From: an archaeon
GTDB lineage: Archaea; Thermoplasmatota; Thermoplasmata; JAJSAE01
Assembly (NCBI GenBank): GCA_024281315.1
Contig: JAJSAE010000069.1
Coordinates: 1 to 50,156, forward strand
Length of the DNA stretch: 50,156 nt
Reading direction: 5' to 3'
The notes beneath the pieces were generated by a model that worked only from the letters and a program-made list of their open reading frames with translations, was not told the DNA's origin and made no database searches. Shown piece after piece: positions 7,748 to 17,848 of this stretch (position 1 is the first letter of the stretch; the number at the start of each line of letters is the position of its first letter). Made by a program: the position numbers and the translations under genes.

Positions 7748-10700
7748 ATGAACGGGAAAAACGACGGATTAAAGAAAGGAGTGGCAGTTCTGCTGGTCCT
7801 TCTTATGGTTAGTAGCGGCTTTTTTGTCATAGTGACGGATAGCGCGGCGGCAAAGAGCAGTGACATGAGCGGCACCGCAAACCCCGCAGATATGGGGCCG
7901 GTGCAGGAGAAGACGGGGACAAATAGTGGAAGCGATAGCGCAACCAGCACAGGGAGCGATGTGAACTCGAATGCAGCAGGAAATGGTGCAGGACAGGCCA
8001 CTGTGCCCAATGATGCTGGCGGGCGCGGCCCGAGAGAGAAGAACACCGCACAAAAGGATGTGAAAACACAGGCCGCACACCCACAGGTTACAAAAACGGG
8101 CATGGATACAAATACAAAAAGATCGAACGAGAGGCGCACTTCGGAGAACAGGGAAACCGTGAATACTGCGGAGAATCCGGTTTATGCCGCATCCGTTTCC
8201 GGCAACCCTGCGCCGCCCATATCATCAAGCTGGAAGATTGGTACAATCTCTGATGTTACAGCCGGAAGCGGCGCACAGCCGGCGGCAGTCGGGCCCGTTG
8301 TGGTTGTGTATGATATGGATACGAATAAAACATACGCCAGCATTCAGGATGCCATAAACAACGCAACCTCCGGAGACCATCTGATAATTCGGGGCATGGC
8401 CTTAGAGAACATCTCCGTGGATGGAAAGACGATACAGATAGTCAACTCATCGTTTGACCTCATCGGAGACATTAGTGTAAGGAACGGCGGCTCTTTGCTT
8501 GTAGACCCGTCATGGGTCAACATGTCCGGGAACTGGTACATAGATGCGGGGGCGATAAATGTAACCGACAACACGATTGTCCAGTTCAACAACTCCTTTG
8601 ACGGTGAGTTTGGGATACAGGTGAACAGCACGGGCACCCTCATCATCCAGAACGGCAGCAAGATACAGTCCAACGGAACAGCCCAGTACTGGTTCCATGT
8701 CCTGCCGGGAGCCAGCCTTTTCATCAACGACAGCGTAGTAAAGAACTGCGGCTGGAACGACAGCGACCCGGGGCCGATGATACAGGCATCTGGCCTTTAT
8801 GTGCACAATGGCACATTCACCGAGAACGGAGCGGGCCTCATCCTTTTTGATGTGGACGGTGCCATCGTAGAGAACAGTACATTTTACAACAACTTTATGG
8901 GCGGAATCGGACTTATCGATGGAGCGGATGGGAATTACATAGCCAATAACAGCTTCGACGGGGCAGAGGGAATTCACATGGAAGGCAGCAGGAACAATGT
9001 CATATCCGGCAACCAGATGTCAAACACAACATATGGTATATATAATCAGATGTCCAACACAACATACGGCACATATAATTCATATTCTCCGTCCAACCTC
9101 CTCCAGAATCCGGGAGCGGAAACCGGCGACCTTTCCGGATGGACAATCGATGCGAACGGAGGAGCGGGGTGGAATGTCGTCGATGGCGGAGGCCGGGACA
9201 GCAGGTATTGCTTCGTGACCTCGTACGATTGGGATATAAAGCATCAGGAGATTGACCTGCTAGCCGCAGGATACACACCGGCGTTCCTTGACTCATCTCC
9301 GGATATAACGGCTTCAGAATGGTTCTACAGCAGAGTAGACCAGACCGGCATGTATGAGCTGAAAGTTGAGCTTCGCAATGCAACACATGCGGTCATCGCC
9401 AGCTGGGATACCGGTGTAAAAGACGCTCTTCCAAGGACTACATGGATACTGGAGAACCACACCTTTGCAGGATATCCCACCGGCGTCAGATATGTCTATT
9501 TTGAGGACCGTGGCAAGGATACAAGCTACTGGAGCAATTGGTATGGCGCACGGATGGATGACGCATCGCTAACTATCAAAGGATACGATAGAAATATCAT
9601 AGAAGGCAATACCATAAGCGGTCCCGGCTACGGCATATATCTCGATGGCGTATCATATAGCACCATCTCCAACAACAGCATCACATCATACAGCGGCATC
9701 TACATGAACAATTCGGATAACAACACGCTCTATAACAACGATATTACCTTCGGCAACAACAAATACGCCAACCTTGTAGCATACTGGAAGATGGATGAAA
9801 GCCAGTGGACAGGAGTCTGGGGCGAGGCAAGGGATTCATCCGGAAACGGACATAACGGATATGCACGGAATGGGGCCAACACCAATGCGTCCGGTTATTA
9901 CGGAAGGGCCGGAGACTTTGACGGGGTAAATGACTGGGTCTACATCTCGGATGGCGGCAATGCCCTAGACCTAACAGGGGACATGACCGTGGAGGCATGG
10001 ATAAATGCCCGGAGTTTCGGATGGTATGATGGAATCGTGAGCAAGTACCAGAGCTGGGGTGCAAATGGCTTCACCCTCCGACTTAGCCCTGTCGCACCAT
10101 ACAACACCATAGACTTCTGCGGCCGCACAGGAACCATTCCGCTGAATGCGAACGAGTGGTACCATGTGGTCGGGGTCATGCAGGGAGGCACGGCTAACAT
10201 ATATGTCAATGGAGTTCTAGACACTTCGGGAGCACCGGCGTATACCCGCGTCGCCAACTGGAATCCCGTATCGATTGGAGGAGATTATGTATATAGCGGA
10301 GGAAGATACTTTGACGGTCTCATCGACGATGTTCGAATATTCAATAGCGCCCTCAGTCCCGAGGAGATAAATCAGACATACAACAGCGAGTTCGCTTACG
10401 GTATTTACATGAAAGATTCGGCGGACAACAATATTTCTTTCAATCCTTCCATCAGCGATATTTCCGGATACGGGGATGCGGCAATCTATCTGGACAACTC
10501 CAGTCCAACCATATCATACGCAAACATGGACAACTCACTACAAGGTCTTGTTTGTGTTAACGGTGCGTCGCCCCTGATGGTCAGTTCCCAGATCTTGGGC
10601 AATGTGGTGGATGATGTTTATGTGAACGGGAATTCGCACCCCATCCTGTTGAATACGACATTCAATAAAGATCAGGGATATGTGATCGATTCTTCCAGCA

Positions 10701-13700
10701 ACCTGACGGTGGAATGGTATCTGGATGTCTATGTCCGGGATGCCGGCGGAGTGGCGCTTCCGGGAGCATGGGTCAATCTCACAGACAGACAGGGCAACTA
10801 CATCCCTGCCGGAACAACCGACGCTTCCGGGCATCTGGGTCCGCTTGTTCTTGTGGAATATGTCCAGAACTGGACAGAAAAGGATTACTACGCCCCATAC
10901 AATGTATACGCTGACGACGGGACTAACTACGGCTCGGAACCCGCACTGCTCGATACCTCCATGAGCGTTTACATCACCGTCGGCCTTCAGTATGTTCATA
11001 ATATCGAGCAGGACACATGGTATCCGGGGATACAGCCTGCCGTAATCATGGCCAACCCCGGAGAGCACCTGGAGGTCTATGGAGGAACGCACAACGAGAG
11101 CGCTCTCGTGGACAAAGAGGTGCACATAGCAGGCGTCGGTTCACCCCTGCCGGTCGTTAACGGGAACGGGGCCGGGCCGGCATTCTATATCGATGCGGAA
11201 GGCGTGGAGATAAGCGACCTGAACATTACGAACACCGGAGCGGCGGCCAATGAGTACGGAATCTATGCCGACACGGGCGGATTCGACATACATGACAACC
11301 TGTTTCACACCCAGAATTCCGGGGTCTATGTGGACATATATCACTACAACGAGGGCTCGATGAGTATCGGAGACATGAGCATATATAACAACAGGATGGA
11401 AGGAAACGGAATATATTTTAACCGCATCCAGTTCGACCACCCTCTGAGGGATTCCACAATCACCGTGGGGCAGATTGCCATAGACAACAACTGGATAAAC
11501 ACCACATTCGGCAGCGGTATCGAAATAGATATTGAATACACACAATACCTCTATGGCAGTACGTCTGTGGATATGGCAGGTATCGTAGCAACGGGAAACC
11601 ATATCAACAGTTCTTCGGAGTCGTTCTATCTCTATATGGACTCTGTCGGGTATTATATGTACGACACCTCCTCTTTCGCTTTCGGCGACATCGACATCAG
11701 CAACAACGATTTCATATCCGAGAATTCGGATGTCATCTATATCGATATCGGCGATAGCGGCTATTATATGTACAACTACAGCAGCTGGTCGCTAGGCACC
11801 GTGAACATCGCTGACAATACCATTGTTGCTAGAGGTCCATGGTCATCTGGCGTTGAGACCTATATTTATGACTGCGCTGAAGAAATGTACGGAAATTCCT
11901 TCGCCACCTTCGGCCCATGGAACATCCTCCGGAACGACATCACCGCCAGATATGGAGTATACACCGGACCGGAGTACTGCGGCTATGATATGTATGATAA
12001 TGCGGAACTGGTTTTCCATGACTGGAACATAATGTACAACAACATCGATGTCACCGGGACAGGGCTGGAATTTGACTATTATGACATTGGTGAGGAGATG
12101 TACGACAACAGCAGGGTAAGCGGCGGAAACAACAGGATAATGTACAACACGGTAACTGCGGAGGCCAACGAGGCCTACTATCTTTACTACGACTACATCG
12201 GATACGACATGTACGACAGCAGTTATGTTTCCGTCGGCTGGACGAACACCTCTTATAACACATTCCATTCGAACACAAGTTATGGAATGTATGTAGAGAT
12301 ATACAATCTCGGAGCATACATGGAAGGCAGCAGTCAGGCACACATCGGAGACTTCCTCTTTAACGACAATGATGTTCTGTCGAACACGAGTTATGGCATA
12401 TATTTCTATGGATGGTATGAGAACGGATATTATAACAGTGGAAACAGCTATGTTGAGTTCGGCGATGTGCTGGTGAACGACAACCGGATAACAACTAATG
12501 AGAGCACGGGGAGTTATGGAATATATCTTGAGGACTGGTACGACAACGGGGCATACCTGATGGACTTCGCAACCGTCGTATTGGGAAACTTCGAGGTCAA
12601 CAACAACACCATAAATTCCGGAAGCAATGGGATATATGTGGGCAGTTGGTATGGTTGGGGATACTATCTTTCCTATGATTTCAACTCGGGGACGCCGCAG
12701 CCTGCTTCCTGTCATGTCTCTGTAGGCCATATGCAGTTCAACGGCAACATAATAAACTCCTCGGGCGACGGGATTTATATCTACTACTTCGAAGAGATGG
12801 GCGAAGAGATGTACGGCTCCTCCACTTTCACCATGAAGAACTTTGAAGTGCGCGGGAACACCATGAATACACAGGGTTATGGAATCTATGCATATTATAT
12901 GGGGTACTTTGGATATGACCTGTATGATCAATCCGCAGTTACCATAGGTGATTTCCTCTTCAATGACAATATCATATACTCCGGGGATACGGGAATATAT
13001 ATCTCTTACTTTACTGACATAGCAGAGGAAATGTACGAATACTCCCAGTTCGGTATGGGCAACTTCGAGATGTGCCACAACACGGTCAATTCCTCGAGCT
13101 CTGACGGCCTCTATCCCGATGAGATAGAATACCTCGCTTACAATATGTACGACAACTCCCGTGCCACATTCGGCGACTTCCTGTTCAACTGGAATACGGT
13201 GACCAACGCTTCCGGCTATGCCTTCTACTCCGACTACATAGACTATCTAGCCTATGAAATGTATGACAACTCCATAGCGGTCTTCGGAAACTTTGAGTTC
13301 AACAACAACATAATGCACTCCACGGAGGCCGGAGTCTATGTCTATAACGAATACTGGGGCTACTCCATGTACGACTCCTCACAGGCATATTTTGGCCATA
13401 CACAGATGAACGACAATACTGTGAACACCACCGGAAATTCGCCTTGGGTCGTGGGTATAGAGATGGATTCGATGTATGAATTCGCCTATGAGATGTATGA
13501 TAACTCCTATTTCGAGATGGGTAATGTGGAGATATGCAGGAACACCGTGAAGACCAACACTTCCGGCAGCGGCAATGGCATAGAGGCGGACATATATAAC
13601 ATAGGATATAATATGTATGACAGCAGCCGTGCCGTCTTCCATGACTTCTTGTTCAACGACAATAATATAAGCGCTGGCGGCGAGGGCATATATTTCGAAG

Positions 13701-16700
13701 ATTTCTCTTATATCGCATACTACATGTACGACTATTCCAGTTTCAGCATGGGGGATGTGGACATGAACGACAACATCATAAGCGCCGGCGGCGATGGCAT
13801 ATATTTCGTGCCATACGAGGTAGGTGCATACATGTACTACGGTTCATCTGCCAGTATCGGAAGCAACCACATAATCAACAATAACATCACATCTGTGAAT
13901 GACTACGGGATATATTCGTGGTGGTGGTATGATTTCGGATACGAACTCTATGAGAATGCCCATCTGGAGGTCGGTAGCTCCATAATTACCAACAACACGG
14001 TATCGGCGGATGTGGATTCCGCTATCTGCACCGGCCCTTACGAGGCAGGATACGATGTTTATGACTCATCATCGGTGGTCTTCGGCAACTACATTGTTTC
14101 GAACAATACGGCCTTCTCGAACCAGAGCATGGGAATAGTGTTCTATAATTATGAAGTGGGACTTTATCTTTATGACGGCTCGTACTCCTACTCCAATAGC
14201 AGCGTGACAGTAGGGGATATCGAGATAGAGGGCAACGATGTAACGGCCCCGCAGGACACGGGTATATATTTCTATTCCGGGGATGTGGGGTATGATGTGG
14301 AATATGATTCCCGGGTAATAACAGGTGACACATCCATCAGGAACAATGCCGTAGATGCGTACGACGGGCTTTACCTTGAGGTGGACCGCATGGGATATGG
14401 AATCTACGATGATGCCGTGGCGAGCCTTGGAAGCCTTGATGCCGGAAATAACACGATAAACGCCAACACCTCCGGTGGATACGGTCTATACCTGAGGATG
14501 TATCGGGTGGCATACAACCTGTACAACGACGGCCGCTTCACGGCGGGCGATGTTTATCTGCACGACAACACCGTACTGGGATCTGGCACCGGAATGTATA
14601 TTGGGTACGCAGATTGCGGAGCAACTTACAATAATGCATACGGAGAGATTCCCGGCACCCATGCCTACAACAATGACATCACCGCATCTGACTGGGGGCT
14701 GCGCCTTGTCGGGTCCCGGAACCCGTACGCATACACGGGCGGAACACAGGTCTGGGGGCCGGTCAAGATATACGATTCGACCATCAATTCCGGCAACGGA
14801 ACATATATTTATTCGGATGCGGCCAGTACAAAGCCGGATGTCCGGATAAACGATGTCACATTCACCAAGACCGGAGCTTCAGGTCCCGGCAACGGAATCG
14901 CCGCATGGAACGGGGCCGCGACATTCGAAGGGTGCAGTTTCAGCGGATACTCACAGGGCATATATGCCAACGGCACGGACCTGACCGTTGGAAGCAGCAG
15001 TTTCAGCGGAGTGACCGGATGGGACATAAACATGACCGATGCGGCCCATGTGTTCATGGTGGACGACACCTTTAACAAGGCAAATGTTCTCTTCCAGGAT
15101 AATGCATCCATACTGGACATAGGCTGGTACATCACAATCAATGTGATAACACAGACAGGAAACGGAGTGCCTTATGCGGATGTCACCTATACATCCAATG
15201 TCTCCGCTCCTACCGTCTTTACAAAGAGTCTTGTAACCGATGGAAACGGGCAATACCTCGATATGCTGAGAGAATACAGACAGAATATAACGGGAATTAT
15301 AGAGCAGTATAACAATTACAACATGACAGGGACCAAGGCCGGCCTCACCGGATGGCTGGTTCCCGACCCGACGCCCATAGATGCGAGCAAGAATGTTTAC
15401 ATCGTTCTTACGGATACTGACCCGCCGATTCTTGGCGCAGATACATCCGATACCGCGGGAACGACGGGAGATCCGTTCACATTCCGCGTTGATGCCACGG
15501 ATACTATCGGGATGGACTATGTGACCGTTTATTACAGATACGGAAGCAGTGGCGCATATACCAGTGCAGTTATGAGCAGTAGCGACAATATCAGCTGGGT
15601 ACATACCATGAGTCTGCCCTCCAACTTCATCGGGAACATGGAGTACTACTTCATCGCAACGGACCTTGCGGGCAATACAGACACATCTGGAACAGTAGCG
15701 GTACCTATAACTGACAATGATGCGCCGTACGGGCTTGTCGATAACTCACCAGCGGTTGCATACGGCCCGACATATGAGTTCAACATGACCATAAGCGATA
15801 ATATCGATGTTACTTCCGTAACCGTAACATACTGGTTTGATTCCGAGAATCACACCACCACCCCGATGAACGGCGCAGGACCCTGGACTTACACAATAGA
15901 CCTGAACTGCTCGTGGAACAGCACCCTTCACTACTACTTCACCGCAAGCGATGCGGCAGGAAATGTCTTTACCGGCCCCACAACTGATGTACCGGTGAAT
16001 GATAACGAAGCGCCTGTGATTACCGCGGACAATTCCGATACTGCTGCGACAACCGGCGATGAGTTCCATTTCAGTGTGGACGCAACGGACAACTTCGAAA
16101 TCGGCTCCGTTACGGTAATATACTGGTTCGGAAACGGAACACATTCCAGCACGATATTGACCGGCTCGGGAACATACGCCGGAAGTATAGTTATTGATAG
16201 CGGCTCCATCGACACCCTACACTACTACTTCAATGTCACAGATGCAGCGGGAAACTATGTTATCAGTGATACCGTAGATGTTAATGTCGTGGATAACGAC
16301 CTGCCGGTAATCGCAGACATGACTGTGGGTAACCCTGTGAAGGGAAATAACTTCATAATCCTCGGAGAGGTGACCGACAATGTGGGCGTTTCCGGTGTTT
16401 ATCTGGAGTACTGGTTCGATGATGGAATACACGCCAATGAATCCATGCTGGGTGTCGGCGACATCTGGATATTCTCCGTAAGCATGCCGAAGGATGCGGT
16501 GCAACTGCATTATATCTTCCATGCGGGCGACGGAACGGGATGGAACTCAAGCTCTGAAACAATACTGGACACACAGGAGCCCATAGATAACGAGGCCCCC
16601 GTGGTGGTGGACTCCACGACAGCCGTACCGATAACAGACAGGGACTTCACATTCTCGGCTGCAGCTAGCGACAATGTAGGTGTTGCCGGAGTTTATGTCG

Positions 16701-17848
16701 AGTACTGGTTCGACAGCGGAGACCACAGCAATATATCAATGACAGAAGCGGATGCACACTGGGAATTCACCATGAGCGTTCCAGCAGATGTCACGGAACT
16801 GCACTATGTCTTCCACGCCGTCGATACATCCGACAACTGGGCCAGCACGGCAGAGGCAGCGCTCACCGTCGAGGCAACGGCCAGCGACAACGAACCGCCT
16901 GCAATAACGGACAGCACCACAGGAGTGCCCCTGAGCGGAATGGCATTTACATTCTCGGCCGATGTGACCGATAATATCGGTGTTGCCGGAGTTTATGTCG
17001 AGTACTGGTTCGACAGCGGAGACCACAGCAATATATCAATGGCAAACACAGGTAGCGAATGGGAGTACAGCATGATTGTGCCGGCGGAGGTAAGCAGGCT
17101 CCACTACATCCTTTCGGCCAGAGATACCTCCGGTAACTGGAACTCCCTTGCGGAGAAGGAACTCAATGTGCCAGCCCTGATAATCGATACCGAAGACCCG
17201 GTAATCGTATCCATACATACAAGCGAAAGTGCAACGGAAGGGGCGGACTTCTCCTTCACCGTAACTGCCACGGATAATGTTGGTGTGGGAACTGTCTATG
17301 TGGTCTACTGGACCGATGAAAATGAGCAGGCCATGGCTCTTCTGACCGGTGAAAACGGCACATACTCCGGCACCATCGCAGTACCTCAGGGCTCGCAACT
17401 GCACTTCTATCCCGTTGTAAAGGACCTTGTAGGCAACACGGCGCAGGGCAACCAGACCGACATGGACATCACGCCGGCCAGCGGCGGCGGAACCATCGCA
17501 CCGTCAAGCCTAGGGGGAACGAACCTGCTCCTGATAGCCATAATCGTTATCCTCCTTCTGATGGTCATCTACCTAGCGGCCACAAGGAACAAGGGCGGAA
17601 AGGGCGGCACTCCCAAAGCAGCAGTAGAGGAAGCACAGGAAGTTGAGGAACCTAAAGAGGAGGCCGTGGATGAAATGGAAGCGCCGGCACCTGAAAACAC
17701 AGAAGCATCTGAAATGACTGAAGAAAACTCGGAGCCAGAGCAGGCAGAAGCACAGGAAGAGGCAGGAGAAACATCAGGTGAGAGCGCGGAGACCGAAGGA
17801 GTGCCGGAAGAGGAAAAGGGCGAGGTTCTGGACCTCGCTGACTTCTGA
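7748..17848 (+). CDS. Giant (3366 aa) secreted, membrane-anchored parallel beta-helix surface protein with FBA-like and LamG inserts, Tyr-rich repeat array, Ig-like repeats, C-terminal TM and acidic tail
   Basis: N-terminal signal peptide (KKGVAVLLVLLMVSSGFFVIV), NosD/PbH1-type NNxxxxxxxGIY repeats, LamG motif, seven DNEAPVI-type repeats, TM NLLLIAIIVILLLMVIYLAA followed by E-rich tail; GGAGTGAG SD. Confidence 0.95.
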   Translation: MNGKNDGLKKGVAVLLVLLMVSSGFFVIVTDSAAAKSSDMSGTANPADMGPVQEKTGTNSGSDSATSTGSDVNSNAAGNGAGQATVPNDAGGRGPREKNTAQKDVKTQAAHPQVTKTGMDTNTKRSNERRTSENRETVNTAENPVYAASVSGNPAPPISSSWKIGTISDVTAGSGAQPAAVGPVVVVYDMDTNKTYASIQDAINNATSGDHLIIRGMALENISVDGKTIQIVNSSFDLIGDISVRNGGSLLVDPSWVNMSGNWYIDAGAINVTDNTIVQFNNSFDGEFGIQVNSTGTLIIQNGSKIQSNGTAQYWFHVLPGASLFINDSVVKNCGWNDSDPGPMIQASGLYVHNGTFTENGAGLILFDVDGAIVENSTFYNNFMGGIGLIDGADGNYIANNSFDGAEGIHMEGSRNNVISGNQMSNTTYGIYNQMSNTTYGTYNSYSPSNLLQNPGAETGDLSGWTIDANGGAGWNVVDGGGRDSRYCFVTSYDWDIKHQEIDLLAAGYTPAFLDSSPDITASEWFYSRVDQTGMYELKVELRNATHAVIASWDTGVKDALPRTTWILENHTFAGYPTGVRYVYFEDRGKDTSYWSNWYGARMDDASLTIKGYDRNIIEGNTISGPGYGIYLDGVSYSTISNNSITSYSGIYMNNSDNNTLYNNDITFGNNKYANLVAYWKMDESQWTGVWGEARDSSGNGHNGYARNGANTNASGYYGRAGDFDGVNDWVYISDGGNALDLTGDMTVEAWINARSFGWYDGIVSKYQSWGANGFTLRLSPVAPYNTIDFCGRTGTIPLNANEWYHVVGVMQGGTANIYVNGVLDTSGAPAYTRVANWNPVSIGGDYVYSGGRYFDGLIDDVRIFNSALSPEEINQTYNSEFAYGIYMKDSADNNISFNPSISDISGYGDAAIYLDNSSPTISYANMDNSLQGLVCVNGASPLMVSSQILGNVVDDVYVNGNSHPILLNTTFNKDQGYVIDSSSNLTVEWYLDVYVRDAGGVALPGAWVNLTDRQGNYIPAGTTDASGHLGPLVLVEYVQNWTEKDYYAPYNVYADDGTNYGSEPALLDTSMSVYITVGLQYVHNIEQDTWYPGIQPAVIMANPGEHLEVYGGTHNESALVDKEVHIAGVGSPLPVVNGNGAGPAFYIDAEGVEISDLNITNTGAAANEYGIYADTGGFDIHDNLFHTQNSGVYVDIYHYNEGSMSIGDMSIYNNRMEGNGIYFNRIQFDHPLRDSTITVGQIAIDNNWINTTFGSGIEIDIEYTQYLYGSTSVDMAGIVATGNHINSSSESFYLYMDSVGYYMYDTSSFAFGDIDISNNDFISENSDVIYIDIGDSGYYMYNYSSWSLGTVNIADNTIVARGPWSSGVETYIYDCAEEMYGNSFATFGPWNILRNDITARYGVYTGPEYCGYDMYDNAELVFHDWNIMYNNIDVTGTGLEFDYYDIGEEMYDNSRVSGGNNRIMYNTVTAEANEAYYLYYDYIGYDMYDSSYVSVGWTNTSYNTFHSNTSYGMYVEIYNLGAYMEGSSQAHIGDFLFNDNDVLSNTSYGIYFYGWYENGYYNSGNSYVEFGDVLVNDNRITTNESTGSYGIYLEDWYDNGAYLMDFATVVLGNFEVNNNTINSGSNGIYVGSWYGWGYYLSYDFNSGTPQPASCHVSVGHMQFNGNIINSSGDGIYIYYFEEMGEEMYGSSTFTMKNFEVRGNTMNTQGYGIYAYYMGYFGYDLYDQSAVTIGDFLFNDNIIYSGDTGIYISYFTDIAEEMYEYSQFGMGNFEMCHNTVNSSSSDGLYPDEIEYLAYNMYDNSRATFGDFLFNWNTVTNASGYAFYSDYIDYLAYEMYDNSIAVFGNFEFNNNIMHSTEAGVYVYNEYWGYSMYDSSQAYFGHTQMNDNTVNTTGNSPWVVGIEMDSMYEFAYEMYDNSYFEMGNVEICRNTVKTNTSGSGNGIEADIYNIGYNMYDSSRAVFHDFLFNDNNISAGGEGIYFEDFSYIAYYMYDYSSFSMGDVDMNDNIISAGGDGIYFVPYEVGAYMYYGSSASIGSNHIINNNITSVNDYGIYSWWWYDFGYELYENAHLEVGSSIITNNTVSADVDSAICTGPYEAGYDVYDSSSVVFGNYIVSNNTAFSNQSMGIVFYNYEVGLYLYDGSYSYSNSSVTVGDIEIEGNDVTAPQDTGIYFYSGDVGYDVEYDSRVITGDTSIRNNAVDAYDGLYLEVDRMGYGIYDDAVASLGSLDAGNNTINANTSGGYGLYLRMYRVAYNLYNDGRFTAGDVYLHDNTVLGSGTGMYIGYADCGATYNNAYGEIPGTHAYNNDITASDWGLRLVGSRNPYAYTGGTQVWGPVKIYDSTINSGNGTYIYSDAASTKPDVRINDVTFTKTGASGPGNGIAAWNGAATFEGCSFSGYSQGIYANGTDLTVGSSSFSGVTGWDINMTDAAHVFMVDDTFNKANVLFQDNASILDIGWYITINVITQTGNGVPYADVTYTSNVSAPTVFTKSLVTDGNGQYLDMLREYRQNITGIIEQYNNYNMTGTKAGLTGWLVPDPTPIDASKNVYIVLTDTDPPILGADTSDTAGTTGDPFTFRVDATDTIGMDYVTVYYRYGSSGAYTSAVMSSSDNISWVHTMSLPSNFIGNMEYYFIATDLAGNTDTSGTVAVPITDNDAPYGLVDNSPAVAYGPTYEFNMTISDNIDVTSVTVTYWFDSENHTTTPMNGAGPWTYTIDLNCSWNSTLHYYFTASDAAGNVFTGPTTDVPVNDNEAPVITADNSDTAATTGDEFHFSVDATDNFEIGSVTVIYWFGNGTHSSTILTGSGTYAGSIVIDSGSIDTLHYYFNVTDAAGNYVISDTVDVNVVDNDLPVIADMTVGNPVKGNNFIILGEVTDNVGVSGVYLEYWFDDGIHANESMLGVGDIWIFSVSMPKDAVQLHYIFHAGDGTGWNSSSETILDTQEPIDNEAPVVVDSTTAVPITDRDFTFSAAASDNVGVAGVYVEYWFDSGDHSNISMTEADAHWEFTMSVPADVTELHYVFHAVDTSDNWASTAEAALTVEATASDNEPPAITDSTTGVPLSGMAFTFSADVTDNIGVAGVYVEYWFDSGDHSNISMANTGSEWEYSMIVPAEVSRLHYILSARDTSGNWNSLAEKELNVPALIIDTEDPVIVSIHTSESATEGADFSFTVTATDNVGVGTVYVVYWTDENEQAMALLTGENGTYSGTIAVPQGSQLHFYPVVKDLVGNTAQGNQTDMDITPASGGGTIAPSSLGGTNLLLIAIIVILLLMVIYLAATRNKGGKGGTPKAAVEEAQEVEEPKEEAVDEMEAPAPENTEASEMTEENSEPEQAEAQEEAGETSGESAETEGVPEEEKGEVLDLADF
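9011..9076 (+). repeat. 33-bp tandem duplication (NQMSNTTYGIY / NQMSNTTYGTY)
   Basis: 9011-9043 and 9044-9076 nearly identical with few substitutions. Confidence 0.9.
9095..9577 (+). other. F-box-associated (FBA)-like domain within the giant surface protein
   Basis: NLLQNPGAETGDLSGW...CFVTSYDWDIKHQEIDLLAAGYTPAFLD...EWFYSRVDQTGMYELKVEL...HTFAGYPTGVRYVYFEDRGKDTSYWSNWYGARMDDASL matches remembered FBA consensus end to end. Confidence 0.8.
9767..10390 (+). other. LamG/concanavalin A-like domain within the giant surface protein
   Basis: LVAYWKMDE...DSSGNGHNG...GRAGDFDGVNDWVYI...MTVEAWINA...WYHVVGVMQGGTANIYVNGVLD...FDGLIDDVRIFNSALSPEEI. Confidence 0.9.
11340..14800 (+). repeat. About 31 tandem, diverged ~37-aa (~111 bp) Tyr/Asp/Asn-rich protein repeats
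   Basis: Recurrent GYxMYDNSxxxFGDFxFNDNxIxSxxxGIYxxY unit; MYD-to-MYD spacing counted at 35-39 aa for several adjacent units. Confidence 0.9.
15400..17480 (+). repeat. Seven tandem ~90-100 aa Ig-like/cadherin-like repeats in the giant protein
   Basis: Each begins DN(E/D)xPxI and carries (A/V)TDNxGVxxVYVxYW; seven units visible. Confidence 0.85.

Follow-up and report, generated by a model that had tools for sequence, protein, structure and literature searches.

In the cytosol, the Fbs lectins recognise misfolded N-glycoproteins and act as the substrate receptors of ubiquitin ligases. Animal lectin-type F-box proteins reside in the nucleus and cytoplasm or on endomembranes (PMC6389600), and an intracellular location is also reported for NCCRP1, an animal FBA protein that lacks a recognised F-box pattern (PMC3210139). 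In Fbs1, Phe177, Tyr279 and Trp280 make hydrophobic contacts to GlcNAc-GlcNAc, and a change of Thr215 to Pro lowers sugar binding (PMC4603797). FBXO44, also called FBG3, carries a Y-Y-W trio yet does not bind sugar; four of its loops are arranged differently, it has Pro at the Thr215 position, and it binds non-glycoprotein partners (PMC4603797). Here we find an FBA domain in an archaeon, inserted in the beta-helix of a 3366-aa protein that probably resides on the cell surface.

An FBA domain inserted in an archaeal beta-helix

The window, the whole 50,156-nucleotide stretch of archaeal DNA analysed, contains a single open frame for the 3366-aa protein (7748..17848, + strand). Using hmmscan on this frame, we found that aa 450-610 (9095..9577, +) match PF04300 over profile positions 9-175 of 175 with E=2.9e-36 and 125 bits (gathering score 32.4); the segment searched alone gives E=1.5e-38. 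The match is therefore full-length and well above the curated cut-off. The best sequence relatives in the PDB by phmmer are FBXO6 (2e-33), FBXO2 (2.5e-29) and FBXO44, all with E<=7e-27. Identity is 46% to FBXO6 and 43% to FBXO44, and ranges from 42 to 46% for Fbs1 and Fbs2. The sequence-only reading had drawn an FBA match along the full 161-aa segment from residue strings that are all present there; its boundaries are exact, and the HMMER search that it proposed is highly significant. We identify the segment as a genuine FBA domain of the Fbs type, a beta-sandwich. The F-box that stands N-terminal to the FBA domain in the Fbs family is missing: neither Pfam, run on the 3366-aa protein, nor a search of the source genome, which had no positive control, found one.

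The predicted fold agrees with the family assignment. We modelled the domain with AlphaFold2 without templates, using an alignment with ten bacterial relatives; an alignment with beta-helix relatives was misaligned and left out. The model (pLDDT 90.5, pTM 0.88) is the ten-stranded FBA beta-sandwich. Foldseek aligns it to the Fbs1 sugar-binding domain (1umh/1umi) with TM 0.94, so the superposition proposed in the sequence-only reading returned the FBA fold and not a different one. Its ten best PDB matches, with TM 0.85-0.94, are all Fbs1, Fbs2 or FBG3 entries, and the next neighbours are the carbohydrate-binding modules CBM61, CBM16 and CBM22 at TM of about 0.55-0.67, with CBM61 and CBM16 among those at 0.58-0.67. 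The model reaches TM 0.93-0.94 at 1.3-1.7 Å to Fbs1 and glycan-bound Fbs2, and TM 0.85 to non-binding FBG3 (2.7 Å) and to a loop mutant (3.5 Å). This greater closeness to the sugar-binding structures is suggestive only, as the loops are predicted with moderate confidence and the predictor may favour the commoner conformer. Because AlphaFold2 was probably trained on Fbs structures, the fold match supports the sequence evidence and cannot replace it.

Searching the protein in pieces with hmmscan, we observe NosD/Beta_helix matches before the domain (aa 340-437; 8765..9058, +; E=3.1e-11) and again after it (aa 617-670; 9596..9757, +; NosD E=1.2e-8, Beta_helix E=1.7e-8). Since the stretches on both sides match the two families, the domain interrupts the helix, as had been read from the sequence. 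Directly ahead of the domain lie a 33-bp tandem duplication (NQMSNTTYGIY/NQMSNTTYGTY) and the start of a linker (9011..9076, +) that is of low confidence in the model. A model of a longer piece, at a mean pLDDT of 75 and thus of modest confidence, places short beta-helix strands on either side of the FBA domain and predicts disorder in the linker that leads into it. A homologous archaeal beta-helix protein of the same class (L018) aligns to both sides of the domain without an FBA domain at that point. This homolog has two paralogous beta-helix units, one with an inserted Laminin_G_3-like domain and the other with the empty site. From this pattern, together with the alignment, we conclude that these archaeal scaffolds can take up lectin-fold modules between their coils; the FBA domain follows the same plan as the Laminin_G_3 insertion but is met less often.

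Hydropathy of the 3366-aa protein indicates an N-terminal signal or transmembrane segment (aa 7-35; 7766..7852, +) and a C-terminal transmembrane anchor (aa 3249-3283; 17492..17596, +) followed by an acidic tail. Besides the FBA domain and beta-helix repeats, Pfam identifies a Laminin_G_3 module of the ConA-like lectin/glucanase fold just downstream of it (aa 725-875; 9920..10372, +; PF13385, E=6.7e-29) and, near the C-terminus, Ig-like matches that are weak or partial. The protein also contains 73 N-glycosylation sequons. It is probably a giant, membrane-anchored protein of the archaeal cell surface, with export and topology judged from its sequence. An extracellular FBA domain, as originally proposed, is supported by the two hydrophobic segments and by secreted-looking bacterial relatives, and is the likely placement. 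Between 11099 and 15601 (+), the frame encodes some 1,500 residues of degenerate repeats (YDMYDSS.., GDFLFNDN..); they are without a Pfam match, and their sequence has the look of an unusual beta-helix or beta-solenoid. Another giant surface ORF of 6446 aa, with Laminin_G-like stretches resembling this protein, is found on contig 16 of the same genome (26248-27378).

The archaeal origin of the contig is supported by genes for the tetraether lipid synthase Tes, a geranylgeranyl reductase, a deoxyhypusine synthase and an aNop56-type protein within the same 50 kb. The contig also encodes a Ras-family small GTPase (763-1578, -; PF00071, E=7.3e-33). The G+C content of the FBA domain is 53%, close to the 50% of the whole frame. 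Contamination or chimerism was rejected on the grounds of the archaeal contig, the single frame and the even composition.

Prokaryotic relatives and ancestry

Strict peptide patterns, run against about 85,000 species genomes, returned Minicystis rosea, one Flavobacteriales MAG and two weak matches. Family searches then detected FBA domains in 6 of 379 genomes of the Minicystis phylum and in 3 of 298 genomes of the order of the MAG. Ten FBA domains were found in Myxococcota and Bacteroidota; weak matches without a Pfam FBA match (L004, L005) were left out. The bacterial carriers combine EGF repeats with FBA, are short and lipoprotein-like, or place FBA between a signal-like start and a Por_Secre_tail sorting domain. 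Because these carriers look secreted, extracellular use without an F-box is the pattern among the prokaryotic members seen, and outside animals FBA seems to be an extracellular module of rare occurrence that lacks the F-box. The description of a eukaryotic domain in an archaeon was sound in its match to FBXO2/FBXO6-type proteins but incomplete as a framing, since two bacterial phyla have the domain too. Three FBA proteins from the Flavobacteriales order (L003, L014, L015) begin with a signal-like stretch; Pfam recognises a sorting tail in two of the three, and their genomes are small, at 1.4-1.8 Mb. In L003 and L014 the FBA gene comes after a very similar decarboxylase-like gene, and this locus seems conserved.

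Other archaeal FBA domains were absent from 300 genomes of the source class and 390 of its phylum (partly the same genomes), and a more sensitive prokaryotic alignment found none in 270 genomes of the class; the source order is represented in the sample by the source genome only. Plasmid and phage collections (tblastn) and viral contigs yielded no relatives. Searches of the open-access literature gave no report of prokaryotic FBA domains; protein databases may already list archaeal or bacterial members.

We then placed the domain in a tree with the three animal sequences that have solved structures. The best tree groups it weakly with bacterial sequences (62/70), and both a grouping with animals (p 0.37) and a grouping with the Minicystis type (p 0.14) pass the AU test. 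With three animal sequences in the tree, either the animal or the bacterial domains could be the closer relatives of the archaeal one. The admissible animal clade, the 46% identity to FBXO6 and a PF04300 score that is the highest among prokaryotic sequences (132 bits; others 80-115) could all be read as signs of a recent transfer from an animal or of an assembly chimera with eukaryotic DNA. We consider this extremely improbable: the domain is part of one uninterrupted archaeal frame without a break in composition, on an archaeal contig in a genome where the F-box search (again without a positive control) was negative, the secreted bacterial domains are equally similar (46-47%), and the best tree leans weakly towards them.

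A broader and unlikely scenario is that the FBA lectin would be an old extracellular prokaryotic glycan-binding module, with the archaeal domain recognising archaeal N-glycan cores and the cytosolic ubiquitin-ligase lectins of animals derived from, or sharing ancestry with, a surface lectin that lost secretion and gained the F-box.

The aromatic end of the domain and its possible ligands

Using Fbs1 numbering, we find Tyr at the F177 position (9224..9226, +) and Tyr-Trp at Y279-W280 (9527..9532, +), where DTSYWSNWYG aligns with Fbs1 DSVYWKGWFG. The YW of DTSYWSNW, named by the sequence-only reading as the sugar-pocket pair, thus sits at the right positions but does not discriminate, because FBXO44/FBG3 has Y-Y-W and does not bind sugar; the aromatic trio of the chitobiose pocket is present and not sufficient. 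Beyond the trio, inspection of the pocket shows losses: Ser replaces K281, Val replaces T215, and the beta2-beta3 loop, the bearer of N159 in Fbs1, lacks about 9 residues, leaving the archaeal domain without the N159-T215 loop network that forms the Fbs1 pocket. Among the 11 prokaryotic FBA domains, the W280 position is aromatic in all (10 Trp, 1 Tyr), F177 is aromatic or His in 10, and Y279 is aromatic in 7, with V, T, G and N in four bacterial ones. The three pocket loops are identical to FBXO6 at 16/33 positions, to FBXO44 at 15/33 and to bacterial domains at 8-13/33, numbers too small to lean on. Outside these loops the archaeal domain is slightly closer to Minicystis-type sequences, again on small numbers.

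We propose, with a probability of roughly 0.6, that the archaeal FBA domain binds carbohydrate, as a module plugged into a surface adhesin. The beta-sandwich would be held between coils of the extracellular beta-helix of the membrane-anchored protein, and loops at one end of it would form an aromatic cleft from the Tyr at the F177 position and the Tyr-Trp at Y279-W280. Sugar rings of a glycoprotein or polysaccharide, on the cell's own surface or that of a neighbour, would stack against this cleft, and the domain would act beside the Laminin_G_3 module of the same scaffold. Sugar binding of this kind is what we infer from the family, fold and cleft residues; the carbohydrate-binding modules among the fold neighbours, the aromatic positions kept in the prokaryotic domains, the secreted-looking bacterial relatives and the Laminin_G_3 insertion in L018 also speak for it. 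An STT3/AglB oligosaccharyltransferase that carries the WWDYG motif is encoded on contig 60 of the source genome; together with the 73 sequons this makes N-glycans likely on the surface of this archaeon. The STT3/AglB open frame is reported at 2201 aa, about twice the length expected of an archaeal oligosaccharyltransferase. Chitobiose cores have been described for the N-glycans of Thermoproteota and Nitrososphaerota (PMC12153357), lineages other than that of the source archaeon. An N-glycan/chitobiose lectin is a plausible form of the proposal, and specific chitobiose binding is possible, with the aromatic trio as its sole support.

The main rival is that the domain has the true FBA fold but its loop end binds a protein or other non-sugar partner, as FBXO44/FBG3 is thought to, making it a protein-protein adhesion module. 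The trio is that of FBXO44, a binder of non-glycoproteins and not of sugar, the loops differ from Fbs1, and they resemble FBXO44 about as much as FBXO6. Val at T215, in place of the binding-lowering Pro of FBXO44, points the other way, as do the smaller deviation of the model from Fbs1/Fbs2 than from FBG3 and the conservation of the aromatic end across prokaryotes; we regard a protein partner as a real if doubtful possibility. That conservation, which is full-length and includes the exposed aromatic positions at the pocket end, also makes it very unlikely that the domain is a structural spacer that stiffens or decorates the beta-helix stalk without a ligand of its own, even though scaffolds of this kind carry several inserted modules and the FBA distribution is rare and sporadic.

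Comparison with known systems

The lectin-type FBA domain is apparently not limited to the interior of animal cells, and rare bacteria seem to secrete FBA proteins too. An intact FBA domain, predicted to be extracellular, in an oligosaccharyltransferase-bearing archaeon and in scattered bacteria makes the origin of the Fbs lectins testable, namely whether an extracellular carbohydrate binder came first. If binding to the N-glycan core holds true, prokaryotic FBA domains could find use as reagents for glycoprotein capture.

With Fbs1/FBXO2 and Fbs2/FBXO6, the archaeal domain shares the full-length family match, the fold at TM 0.93-0.94 and the aromatic trio positions. It differs in having no F-box or linker, in its likely extracellular setting in a beta-helix surface protein, and in the changes at K281, T215 and the beta2-beta3 loop, and it is a putative sugar binder. 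FBXO44/FBG3 shares 43% identity and an identical Y-Y-W; however, the predicted model lies further from it (TM 0.85, 2.7 Å) than from Fbs1, and the archaeal domain has Val and not Pro at T215. The bacterial domains of Minicystis rosea, other Myxococcota and Flavobacteriales are 36-47% identical to the archaeal one and, like it, lack an F-box and look secreted, but they are found in EGF-repeat, lipoprotein-like or sorting-tailed proteins and not in a beta-helix, and their pocket loops are less animal-like. CBM61, CBM16 and CBM22 resemble it in their beta-sandwich jelly roll and likewise occur in modular proteins outside the cell; with identity of only 11-17%, they are a separate family.
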